Origin: an uncultured Propionibacteriaceae bacterium | GTDB taxonomy: Bacteria; Actinomycetota; Actinomycetes; Propionibacteriales; Propionibacteriaceae | Length of the DNA stretch: 11,871 nucleotides | Reading direction: 5' to 3' | NCBI GenBank assembly: GCA_937859105.1 | Contig: CALMAD010000336.1 | Coordinates: 1-11,871, forward strand | Part shown: piece after piece, positions 6,296-11,612 of the stretch | Position numbering within the stretch: the stretch's first letter is position 1 | How the letters are laid out: each line of letters begins with the position of its first letter | Translations under genes and position numbers: made by a program | The notes under the pieces: model-generated | Databases searched by the model: none | Seen by the model: the letters and a program-made list of their open reading frames with translations, nothing else | What the model was told of the DNA's origin: nothing

Positions 6296-7324
6296 CTACG
6301 AGGCCGGCGGCGCCACCGACTCGCGGATCACCTCGGGGCACTCGACGCGGGTGACCCCGGGCGGAGCCGGGTCCTCCACGACGCCGAGCCGCGACAGCAG
6401 CGCCCCCACCGCCAGCTGACCCATCACCCGGTGCGGCAGCGCCATCGTCGTCAGCGCCGGGTACAGTTCGCTGGCCACGTTCTCGTAGTCGTCGAAGCCG
6501 ACCACCGACAGGTCATGCGGGATCGACAGCCCCAGCCGCCGGGCGGCGTGGTAGACCCCCATCGCGGCGATGTCGTTGTAGGCGAAGATGGCGGTGGGCC
6601 GGTCCGGCGCGTCCAGCAGCGGCAGTGCGGCCTCCTCGGCCGGCTTCGACCCGAAGTGCACCTGCTTCGGGACCGCGACCCGGCCCTCACCGAGGCCGGA
6701 TTCGGCCAACGCCGCCTGAAAGCCCTCAAGCCGGAGCTGACGGGCCAGCCCGTCGCCCGCCGGCTCGCTGAGGTGAGCGATCCGCCGGTGCCCCTGACCG
6801 ATGAGCAGCCGCACCGCCGACCGAGCGGCGGCGAAGCCGTCGGGCACGAAGCAGGGCACCTCAGGGTCGTCAGTGACGGCGTCCAGGCCCACCGTGGGGA
6901 CGCCACGGGTGCGGCCATCGAAGTCCAGCCGTCGGTGGTACATGGCCGCGAAGATGAACCCGTCGACCTGGCGGGCGGCCAGCGCTGCGACCGCGCGGTC
7001 CACCAGCGGCGGCTTGTTGTCGGTGCCGAGCCAGAACAGCAGGTGATCATGCTGCCAGGCCACCTCCTGCGCGCCGAGCACCATCGCCGAGGCGCTCCCC
7101 GAGGTCAGCACCGAGTCGCTCACCACGCCGATGGTGCGGGTGCGCCGCGTGCGCAGGCTGCGCGCGGCCAGGTTGGGCGTGTATCCGAGCTTCTCCGCGG
7201 CGGCCCGGACGCGCGCCTCCGTCTCCGGCGTGATGCGGTCGCTGGTGCCGTTCAGCACCAGCGAGACGGTGGATGGGGACACCCCGCACTCCGCCGCCAC
7301 GTCCTTCAACCGGACCTGAGCCAT
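6296..7324 (-). CDS. LacI-family transcriptional repressor
   Basis: A 342-residue regulator starting at ATG 7324. A GTG two codons upstream is possible, but [10 protein letters not shown] is the usual LacI opening and GGGGTGATC precedes the ATG. The helix-turn-helix [21 protein letters not shown] (6-26) is followed by the hinge helix NLAARSLR (51-58), then a periplasmic-binding-protein-like sugar domain containing [19 protein letters not shown] and LSVVGFDD. It is the last gene of the sugar-uptake operon and intact. Its probable target is the long palindrome ahead of the binding-protein gene, so the inducer is likely the imported sugar or its breakdown product. The ligand itself cannot be named. 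Confidence 0.92.
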
Positions 7325-7397: not shown

Positions 7398-8321
7398 TCA
7401 GGTTTCGCGCACGATCGGCACCGGGTCGAGGATCTCCCCGACGAAGGCTCCCTCCACCAGGTCGCTGAACCCCAGCAGTTTGGGGACGCCGTCGATGTCC
7501 TCGATCACCCGCGCCGCGTACAACGAGTCATGGTCGACGCGGCGGGCGCGGCCCAGATCCCACGGGCCGAGCAACCCCGGCCCGTCCACCAGCCACATGC
7601 CGCCGCGCTGGCCAGGCGGATGCTGCGCCGGATCCAGCTGCCCCACCGCGGTGCAGAACGCGAGGTGAGGACGCCCGTCCAGCTCGACGTACTGGATCAC
7701 TTCCGCCTGGAAGAACTTGCTGGGCTGGGAGAGGGGCGGCCGCACCTCCCACCGGTCCAGATCCTTCGACCAGGCGTGGCCGACGACACCGCGGGAGAAC
7801 GGCTGACCGCTGGCGGACCGGGCCGTGATCAGCATGTGCCAACCGTGTCCGCCGGGGTCCGCCACGACCCACGGGTCACGCCATGCCTCGTCGTGCCACG
7901 GCCCCCCGAGCTTCTCGTACCAGCGCGGATCCGCCTCCACCAGCGGCTCGTCACCGAACCGCTCCCAGTGGACGAGGTCCTCCGAGTCGGCTCGCCCGAT
8001 GCGCTGCACCAGGCAGCCCTCGGCGCGCGAACCACCGGTGTAGAAGAGGTGGTAGCGGCCGGACGGGCCCTGGATCACGGAGCCGGTCCAGGTCGTCCCG
8101 TCGTCCCAGCCGGGCTCGTGACGGGGCTCGAGCGCAGTGGGCAGCACCGTCCACGTCCGCCAGTCGTCGCTGACCGCGTGACCGATCGAGGGGCTCATGT
8201 GGCGCGCCTCAGGGTCGCCCAGGGCCCGCTCCGCCTGCAGGAAGAAGAGATGATGCCGACCGAGGTCGTCCGTGAACGGCCACGAATCCCACACCCACTG
8301 ATGCTCGAGCCTCAGGCTCAC
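7398..8321 (-). CDS. Cytoplasmic GH32/GH68-like glycoside hydrolase (five-bladed propeller)
   Basis: A 307-residue enzyme starting at GTG 8321, which overlaps the ancestral permease stop as GTGA. The frame is open further upstream, but that part is shadow of the permease gene. It has three acidic motifs spaced as in the beta-fructosidase superfamily: VWDSWPF with Asp12 as candidate nucleophile, AWRDP (Arg148-Asp149-Pro150), and QAEV with Glu207 as candidate acid/base. WDSWP resembles GH68 more than the WMNDPNG of classic GH32. No signal peptide is seen, so it should act in the cytoplasm on imported sugar, perhaps sucrose or a fructo-oligosaccharide. It lacks the C-terminal beta-sandwich of GH32. 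GH43-like activity is an alternative. The exact substrate is unknown. It is intact although the transporter genes upstream are broken. Confidence 0.75.
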   Translation of the reverse strand: MSLRLEHQWVWDSWPFTDDLGRHHLFFLQAERALGDPEARHMSPSIGHAVSDDWRTWTVLPTALEPRHEPGWDDGTTWTGSVIQGPSGRYHLFYTGGSRAEGCLVQRIGRADSEDLVHWERFGDEPLVEADPRWYEKLGGPWHDEAWRDPWVVADPGGHGWHMLITARSASGQPFSRGVVGHAWSKDLDRWEVRPPLSQPSKFFQAEVIQYVELDGRPHLAFCTAVGQLDPAQHPPGQRGGMWLVDGPGLLGPWDLGRARRVDHDSLYAARVIEDIDGVPKLLGFSDLVEGAFVGEILDPVPIVRET

Positions 8322-9265
8322 CCCTTCACCCCCGAACTGGCGATCGACGAAATGAACGCCCGCTGGAACATGAGGAAGATGATGATCACCGGAATCGTGA
8401 TCAGGCTGGTGTAGGCCATGATCTGCCCCCAAGGCATCCCCTCCGCGGTACCCGAGGAGAAGAATTAGCGCATGCCCACCTGCACCGGCCGCATGTCTTC
8501 GTTTTGAATGACCGGCCACAGGTACGAGTTCCACTGCGGGAGGAACGTGAGGATCGCCGAGGTAGCGAATGCGGGGCCCGCCAGCGGGGACACCACGGAG
8601 CGGTAGATGCGGAGCCATCCGGCCCCGTCGACGCGCGCGGCCTCGTCGAGCTCCTTCGGAATCGAGCTGTAGTACTGCGTGAACAGGAAGATCGAGAAGG
8701 CGTTCGCGATGAACGGGATGATCAGGACCTCATAGCTGTTCGCCCACCCCATCCGAAAGGCGAATCCGTCGGAGTGCAGCACCACCCGCGGCAGATTCGA
8801 GACGAGGTACACCATCGGGATGGCGAAGGTCTCGAAGGGCACGATCAGCGTGGCGATGATGGCCCCCAGAATGAGCCCCCGACCGCGGAACCGTAGCCGC
8901 GCCAGCGCGAAGCCGGCCATGGAGTTCACGACGAGCCCCAGCACCACGATCGACACGGTGACGATGGTCGAGACGAGGAAGAACTGGCCCACCGGGACGC
9001 GGTCGAAGACGCCGACGTAGTTGTCCATGGACAGGTCCCCCACCGGGACGAACGCTCGCCAACTCGTGAGGTCGTTGAGGATCTGATTCCGCGGTTTGAA
9101 GCTCGAACTGATCATGAACAGCAGCGGAAGAATGAAGGTCAGCGACAGCAAGACCAGCGGGATATAGGTCCACGGATTTCCGCGATCGGTCCCGCTCGCA
9201 CGGATCGTTTTCGTGACGGGTTGCGCCTGCACCGTGGCGGCGGCCGCCTGGGTTTGAGTGCTCAT
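8318..9265 (-). pseudogene. Sugar ABC permease 2 (MalG type), broken by an in-frame TAA
   Basis: The gene reads from ATG 9265 (behind a strong AAGGAGGACT) to a TAA at 8465-8467, codon 267. Reading on in the same frame gives 48 more residues that fit the family's C-terminus (FFSSGTAEGMPWGQIMAYTS, then a last membrane helix LITIPVIIIFLMF, ending SSGVKG) before the natural TGA at 8318-8320. The original protein was 315 residues. Five or so membrane segments and the EAA loop (ELDEAARVDGAGWLRIYRSV, from 205) are retained, and the last helix is lost. The stop probably replaces a tyrosine codon (VGM-R-Y-FF), one base away. The inner-membrane partner would be permease 1. A base-calling error is the main alternative. 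Confidence 0.9.
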
Positions 9266-9269
9266 GGCT

Positions 9270-10184
9270 CTAGTCCTCCTTGGTGAGAGCCCGCTGGAGC
9301 AGCGTGACGGCCAAGACGATGATGAAGAAGATCAGACTCAGGGCCGATCCGTAGCCGACGTCGCCGCGTCCGGAACCCATCTGAATGATGTGGTAGACGA
9401 GCGTGGTCGTCGCGTTCGCGGGGCCGCCGCTGGTCACCACGTCGATCTGCGTGAACAGCGAGAACGCGGAGATCGTGATGGTGATGAAGATAAAGACGAA
9501 CGTCGGCCGCAACCCCGGCAGGGTGACGTTGAGGAACTGCTGCCACTTGGTCGCCCCGTCCAGGGCGGACGCCTCGTAGAGGTCATGGTTGATCGTCTGC
9601 AGCCCCGACAGCCACAGGATCATGTGGAACCCGACCCCCTACCAGATCGACATGACGATGACGGCCGGGAGCGCCGTTGACGGCTCTTTCAGCCAGTCCA
9701 CATTGAAGCCGAAGATGGCGTTGACGAGGCCGTCCTGCTGGTACATGAAGCGCCACAGCATCGCGACGACCACCATCGACGTGACCACCGGCATGAAGAA
9801 CATCACCCGAAACGCGGTGACGCCTCGCAACTTCTGGTTGACGAGCAGCGCCAGGACCAGCCCGAGGCCGCCCTGCACCGGCACGACCACGAACACGAAG
9901 ACTGCGATGTTACGCAGGCCGGCCCAGAACGTCGGGTCGGCGGTCAGGGCGCGGAGGAATTGCGCCAACCCCACGAACTCGGGGGCGTAAGCGGACCCGA
10001 GCCGCGCGTTCGTAAAGCCCAGCCCGAACGACATGAGGACGGGGACGACGAGGAACAGCAACAGCAGGATGACGGCGGGAGCGAGGAACCAAAAGGCCGC
10101 TCTCTCTTCTGGGGCGTCCACAGATTCGGGGCGCTTCGGCACATTGCGCGAACGAGGGTTCGCCTTGGTGACAGTCGTTGACAT
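9270..10184 (-). pseudogene. Sugar ABC permease 1 (MalF/UgpA type), broken by an in-frame TAG
   Basis: I start at ATG 10184 (MSTTVTKANP), which has GGGGAG seven bases upstream, rather than a GTG seven codons earlier that overlaps the binding-protein stop. An in-frame TAG at 9639-9641 is codon 182. The frame resumes at once with GVGFHMILWLSGLQTINH and runs to a natural TAG at 9270-9272, for about 304 residues in all. In relatives the interrupted spot reads IW-Q-GVGF, so CAG to TAG is the simplest change. The coupling loop that contacts the ATPase (YEASALDGATKWQQF, from 203) lies after the stop, so the truncated product could not work. Permease 2 starts four bases downstream. Confidence 0.9.
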
Positions 10185-10201
10185 GAAAGGCTCCCCTCGG
10201 C

Positions 10202-11502
10202 TCACCGGTTGTACCGGGCGGCGTTGATGTCGGCGTCGATCTCCCGCACGGATTGCTCGAGCACCTGCTCAGGAGCCTTGCCTGCGACGAGATCCTGGAA
10301 TTGCTGCTGGAAGACCTGACTCACCACCGGATACGCCGGCGTGGGCGGACGCACCAACCCGAAGCGGCGTGACATCTCGGTGAGGAAGGCCAGCGGCTGG
10401 CCGGGCCCGTAGTAGCCGGCGGTGGTCTGCGCGGCCGCCGTCGTGGTGGCGGGGATCAGCGACGTCACATCCGAGAACTCCGCGATGTAGCGATCCTGCA
10501 TCGAGAACCGCAGGTACGCGAGGGCGCCCTCCTTCTGTCGAGCGGTGCACGCGCGCGTGAGGCCGTACTGCCACGAGCCGACGCCCACCTTGGGGCCGGC
10601 CCCGAAATCAGGCGGCGGCAGAATCACCAGGTCATCACCGAAGGCCTGGTAGTTCTTGAGGTAGCTCCAGTTGCCGCTGTACTGCATCGCGACGCGCCCA
10701 TTCTCGAACTCGGTGCGGTCCTGGGCGTTGGATCGCGGCGCGAACCCCTCGGTGAACTGCTTCTGGAACCACTCGGCGAACGCGAGGGATTTCGGACTGT
10801 TCAGGACGCCGTCGGCCGTCTCGTAGTTCTCCCGGTTGATGAGATCGCCCCCGAAGCTTTGCAGCAGTGGCGAGTACGCATAGGTGTACCACTCGCTCTG
10901 GTCGCTGGGGCCCCAGTCGACCGCCCACTCGAAGTCGCCAGACGCCTTGATGCGCTGCTCCGCCTCTGCGAACTCCTGCGCCGTCCGCGGGCGATCCACG
11001 CTGGGAATACGGATGCCGTACTTCTCTCCAAGACGGACCGCCGCGAGAACAGCGCGGTCGTGGCGTCCCAGTAGCCCACCGTGTAGATCTGGCCGTCGTA
11101 GCGGCCGACCGTCGACGGAAGGAAGTTCGCGACATCCTTCTCCGTCAGGCCGGGCGGCACCAACCAACCGTTCCACGCCCACCTCGGCATGATCGGTCCG
11201 TCGACATCCAGAATGCACGGCAGGTCATTGGACGCCGCCGCACCCTGCACGGACGTGTTGTAGGCGTCCTGCGGGAAGTCCTGCCGAACCACCTCGTAGT
11301 CGCTTTGCGAAGCATTGAACTCGGTGATCATGCGGGAGATCACCTTCATCTCGCCCTCATTGCCCGCCGAATGCGACCAGAGGCTGATGGGCACCGGGCC
11401 CGTGCCGTCCCATCCGTCCCGGTCCTGGCTGCTGCACCCCGCCAGGACAAGCGGCGCCATCACGGCCAGGCAGGCCACGAGGGCGAGTCCGCGTCGAACC
11501 AT
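10202..11502 (-). pseudogene. Sugar ABC solute-binding lipoprotein, frameshifted
   Basis: The start codon is ATG 11502, behind AAGGGGGAC. The lipoprotein signal MVRRGLALVACLAVMAPLVL is followed by the lipobox LAGC, with Cys23 to be lipidated and anchored outside the membrane. The frame is good to Glu159 (YWDATTALFSRRSVLE). Two extra bases in the TC repeat at 11023-11028 then shift it, and the true protein continues in another frame as KYGIRIPSVDRPRTAQEFAE through to INAARYNR at 10204. Removing the two bases restores 432 residues, the usual length of a family 1 sugar-binding protein. The upstream frame ends after 233 residues. Downstream landmarks such as YAYSPLLQSFGGD and ENGRVAMQYSGNWSY are well kept, so the lesion is recent or an error. 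Confidence 0.9.
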
Positions 11503-11581: not shown

Positions 11582-11612
11582 TGCTCAAACGATTTAGTGA
11601 ATCGTTTGAGCA
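11582..11612 (-). promoter_or_regulatory. Perfect long palindrome, likely LacI-type operator of the sugar operon
   Basis: Arms TGCTCAAACGATT (11582-11594) and AATCGTTTGAGCA (11600-11612) are a perfect 13-bp inverted repeat around TAGTG, 80 bases before the binding-protein start. It stands out as AT-rich within a GC-rich region. The two-fold symmetry and the adjacency to an operon that encodes its own LacI-type protein make it the likely operator. A -35-like TTGATA lies just upstream, so bound repressor would cover the promoter. Confidence 0.7.

Follow-up and report, generated by a model that had tools for sequence, protein, structure and literature searches.

Organization of the operon and its disruption

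The window, the whole 11,871-nt contig analysed here (C336), derives from a 2.61 Mb assembly of 486 contigs that is 73.85% complete and is probably a metagenome-assembled genome. On its minus strand, downstream of the end of groEL, lie genes for a solute-binding protein (E), two permeases (F and G), a hydrolase and a LacI-family regulator, followed by urease genes (Table 1). UreC was assigned through a family scan; the names of the other urease genes, a putative urea transporter and groEL are presumptive or come from an earlier, sequence-only reading of this DNA. The presence in a single operon of a solute-binding protein and two BPD_transp_1 permeases identifies the importer as CUT1 (MalEFG-type). 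SBP_bac_8 was found in both pieces of E, with the N-terminal piece at 26.3 bits, just below the 27-bit cut-off. F scored 69 bits when read through its stop, and its N-terminal piece by itself gave no Pfam match. In actinobacteria, MalK-type ATPases with an OB domain are often encoded away from the importer operon, and the one OB_MalK match, on another contig (C368), was in frame with an ABC ATPase, a candidate for a shared ATPase. By homology, the operon is predicted to encode a LacI-controlled CUT1 importer together with a clan GH-J hydrolase, possibly served by this ATPase.

Table 1. Coordinates of the operon, its lesions and the operator-like repeat in the window
Feature	Position	Strand	Remarks
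E, solute-binding protein gene, broken	10202..11502	-	net two-base frame change at ~11024-11029; open in relatives
TC dinucleotide tract with the E frame change	11024..11029	-	from the sequence and comparison with relatives
F, permease gene, broken	9270..10184	-	in-frame TAG at 9639-9641
In-frame TAG in F	9639..9641	-	one residue in that column in 106/108 homologues
G, permease gene, broken, two residues short	8318..9265	-	in-frame TAA at 8465-8467
In-frame TAA in G	8465..8467	-	one residue in that column in 116/116 homologues
Junction of the six-base in-frame shortfall in G	8512..8513	-	from homologue alignment
Clan GH-J (GH32N) hydrolase gene, open	7398..8321	-	GTG start overlapping the natural G stop
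LacI-family regulator gene, open	6296..7324	-	
Inverted repeat, putative LacI operator	11582..11612	.	upstream of E

The frames of E, F and G are all broken relative to open orthologues, as in pseudogenes, and the three lesions of the sequence-only reading, one per transporter gene, are all present. In E, a net two extra bases were found in the TCTCTC tract compared with all three aligned relatives; the sequence-only reading had put the change at 11023-11028, one base away from where we place it. A fourth lesion had been missed: G is six bases short, in frame, and lacks a two-residue spacing that is kept in all of the aligned homologues (119 listed relatives per gene, length-filtered to 116 of at least 290 aa for G, 108 for F and 112 for E). 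Open frames were found for the hydrolase and LacI as well as for the putative urea transporter and the urease genes, and the groEL end reads through to its natural stop, in agreement with the earlier statement that the urease genes, hydrolase, repressor and groEL end carry no lesion.

The nearest genome with the operon belongs to the same genus as the source, presumably Propioniciclava. Propioniciclava soli (L013/L020) and Piscicoccus intestinalis (L019) carry E-F-G-hydrolase-LacI in the same order, with 71.8-97.5% protein identity per piece and the same overlap of the hydrolase GTG start with the G stop, which was seen in 4/4 relatives shown. They differ from the window in their flanking genes and in having open frames, with 0 stops in the compared pieces. 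The 18 kb examined on and beside the operon in P. soli contained no urease match, and a groEL end was absent from the P. soli stretches that were covered; P. soli ureC lies ~27 kb away on the same contig and the opposite strand. Among 198 genomes of the family, 27 have a match at E<=1e-75 and five, the window's own included, at >=73% identity. This patchy distribution fits an accessory operon that is gained and lost. The P. intestinalis operon (NBRC 104926, L019, 4757-9976) is closer to the window than that of P. soli in the second F piece (97.5% vs 93.4%) and in LacI (80% vs 72%), and for G the order is reversed (P. soli 88.8%, Piscicoccus 82.8%). These uneven identities suggest horizontal exchange of the operon.

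Lesions in the assembly and on public contigs

As controls we used 144 matches to domains of four transporter families, all taken from this assembly but not from the operon (26 to PF00528, 63 to PF00005, four to PF13416 and 51 to PF07690; 86,649 bases in all). Inspection revealed three frameshifts (C471, C328 and C204) and no confirmed in-frame stop. The count of three is a lower bound, as inspection covered only some of the partial matches (C136:7969-8715 and C407:9921-10745, for example, lie outside it), and some partial matches sit at contig ends (C143, C219 and C346). At this rate 0.11 frame-breaking lesions would be expected in 3,185 bases where three were observed (P = 2e-4, for a region picked post hoc), and with four to six control lesions P would be 5e-4 to 1.5e-3. 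PF00528 has 28 matches in the assembly, with stops in only two, both in this operon. The clustering of lesions on the operon, as proposed in the sequence-only reading, looks real. The contrast between broken transporter and intact hydrolase and repressor, which was part of the same claim, is not established and carries little weight, because lesions placed uniformly over the operon would all spare the hydrolase and LacI with a probability of 0.24. Over the whole coding sequence of the window, the chance of all three falling in E, F and G is 0.023.

Confinement of such lesions to this operon is not supported either, since frameshifts are present in three or more further transporter genes of the assembly. 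Two encode MFS transporters (C328:13561-14572 and C204:786-1267), and an ABC ATPase gene (C471:5228-5658) changes frame ahead of its signature motif. These other frameshifts may be errors. A further MFS gene on C66, flagged for a TGA, proved not to be broken; the TGA lies beyond an intact 415-aa frame.

We searched for public copies of the broken genes. Truncated F (181 aa) was found as one sequence on 13 public contigs, the longest of 32,001 bases. Truncated G was present as four sequences on nine contigs and the second-frame E piece as five sequences on five contigs, the window being the longest contig in both cases. The next clusters were at 85% (F), 89% (G) and 81% (E) identity, apart from one partial cluster for F at 86% and one for E at 82%. 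No near-identical full-length copy of F, G or E was found among the best 120 matches for each within the searched size range; two of these searches scored just the ~8,000 candidates with the most shared words. Had the same species contributed a full-length copy, we would expect to see it as a near-identical match. Its absence among these best 120, together with the truncated F on 13 contigs, makes a one-off error unlikely, though the contigs behind the counts may be re-assemblies of one sample.

Sequencing error, faulty assembly or a mosaic of strains, in which some or all lesions would be consensus errors or strains with one lesion each would have been merged, is a less likely source of the pattern. 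The assembly is fragmented and has frameshifts elsewhere, the E lesion falls within a dinucleotide tract, and few missense changes accompany the two stops. In addition, the 32,001-base contig, which is longer than the window, counts for F, and the longest contig listed for G and for E is the window; F may lie at the end of that contig, or its neighbours there may be different. Against an artefact stand the identical truncated F on 13 contigs with no near-identical full-length copy among the matches listed, the 144 controls without a confirmed in-frame stop, and the six-base in-frame loss in G, which we judge not to be a typical read error. The error question is narrowed, not closed. Our literature search found no paper on pseudogene artefacts in metagenome-assembled genomes and none on sugar use in metagenome-assembled Propioniciclava.

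We also considered that the genes might still function through stop readthrough, translation restart or split subunits. An in-frame ATG does occur at the sixth codon past the F stop and at the tenth past the G stop. The second half of E, however, would have no signal peptide, relatives keep single open frames, and G also lacks two residues of an invariant spacing; reassignment of stop codons is argued against by the same controls. We consider continued function very improbable.

Conservation and selection since the break

The broken genes show little extra amino-acid change. Identity to Piscicoccus was 0.806 for the window and 0.801 for P. soli in E, and 0.895 and 0.888 in F; in G the window was slightly more diverged (0.845 vs 0.874). 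Of 378 conserved columns, the window violates eight (3/147 in G, 1/131 in F and 4/100 in E), P. soli six (one, two and three in G, F and E) and Piscicoccus five (four, none and one). The loss was called perhaps recent in the sequence-only reading because the rest of each protein is well conserved, and this observation stands. The expectation that the permeases would be relaxed relative to the hydrolase and repressor was not borne out. In branch tests with five taxa, omega on the window lineage showed no difference for E (p 0.78), F (p 0.85), G (p 0.25) or LacI (p 0.57), and the sole nominal rise was in the hydrolase (p 0.044, uncorrected); synonymous sites are saturated, which leaves these tests with low power and a recent break still compatible with them. 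We regard the five-taxon model as uninformative for relaxation, as the p of 0.003 for Piscicoccus G shows noise under saturation. Neither omega nor violations of conserved sites rose in E, F and G since the break, which points either to a recent loss or to too little power in these tests.

Third-position GC was 0.88-0.93 in the five measured pieces of the broken genes (E1, E2, F1, F2 and G1). For comparison, the urease genes with the putative urea transporter had 0.91-0.97, and E, F and G of P. soli had 0.96-0.98. AT-ward drift was rejected as a signal of decay: another transporter operon of the assembly (C230) has a third-position GC of 0.90-0.95, and decay so strong should give missense changes in large numbers, which is not what was seen.

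Given two stops, ~11-17 decay changes would be predicted at conserved columns, and the observed excess was two to three over a background of 5.5 violations estimated from two genomes. The joint probability under neutrality is at most 0.014-0.037 for opportunity ratios of 14-8. This imbalance between stops and missense changes hints weakly at selection, a strain mosaic or an artefact. Were it due to selection, loss of the importer would have been favoured and lesions would have accumulated faster than by neutral decay, possibly as parallel alleles of co-occurring strains merged in one contig. We consider positive selection of this kind improbable. AT-biased mutation lowers the opportunity ratio to 5.4-6.1, which is outside the joint test and would give a milder result, the background rests on two genomes, an artefact or mosaic yields the same imbalance, and additional hits bring no benefit once function is gone.

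The hydrolase, the regulator and the probable loss of uptake

The hydrolase (307 aa) has a PF00251 match of 58.8 bits, the only one in the assembly. The three acidic positions of clan GH-J (GH32/GH68-like; D, RDP and E) are present in the window and in 48/48 matches from 53 loci, two of which are the same P. soli locus. The role of each of these acidic residues is presumed. The closest solved sequence match, a weak one (E 1.2e-4), is the beta-fructofuranosidase 3wpy, a GH68 enzyme. The short hydrolase carries WVWDSWP in place of the usual GH32 nucleophile motif. Its start codon (8319-8321) overlaps the natural stop of G, and translation of G ends 147 bases early in the window. Because of this overlap, hydrolase translation is probably impaired, with its output reduced unless ribosomes restart.

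Upstream of E, the repeat is a perfect inverted repeat with 13-base arms and a 5-base loop (fold z -6.2 vs shuffles) and a putative LacI operator. Of the seven relatives shown, P. soli, Piscicoccus and Arachnia have a single AAACGATT box upstream of E; the second, inverted AAACGATT box occurs only in the window among the seven relatives compared. No second copy of the 21-base core of the repeat was detected, allowing <=3 mismatches, in the ~74% complete genome, and the search with this core thus gave no second LacI target. The idea that enzyme and regulator serve another role fits poorly with an operator-like core that is unique in the genome and with hydrolase translation that looks coupled to G.

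Taken together, we think it probable that the importer of this LacI-controlled CUT1 operon was recently lost in this lineage and that its partner genes then began to decay. Of the earlier proposal, recent loss of the uptake system is retained as the best reading, together with the conservation of the proteins; relaxed permeases, confinement of the lesions and another role for the enzyme and regulator are not. The E, F and G importer, under LacI control and probably with a shared MalK-type ATPase from elsewhere, would have fed a fructoside-type substrate to the clan GH-J hydrolase. One lesion would have abolished function and the remaining genes of the pathway, no longer selected, would have taken further hits, among the E frame change, the F stop, and the G stop and two-residue loss; the order of these events and the loss of transport itself are inferred. 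Hydrolase output would fall through the coupling of its start to the end of G, a drop that the ATG past the G TAA, which lies behind a GGAGG stretch, could soften. If the lesions are real and fixed, the locus captures an accessory operon for sugar uptake at a stage very shortly after its loss. As the enzyme, the regulator and the operator-like site have stayed in place, it would then be useful for learning the order in which operon parts decay. Fructoside use by this assembly should not be predicted from the hydrolase alone.

The case looks like ordinary, recent pseudogenisation of an accessory nutrient system. Decay of partner genes after the loss of one pathway gene is reportedly the subject of the 'Domino theory' of gene death, said to have been put forward by Dagan and colleagues in 2006 for obligate symbionts and pathogens; the likeness lies in the decay of partners and the difference in the organisms. 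A comparison of many isolates of Salmonella Paratyphi A describes truncation of uhpB, uhpC and uhpT (PMC9241588). These truncations affect nearly a whole sugar-phosphate uptake system in one lineage and resemble the window in this, although in another organism and a different type of transporter.
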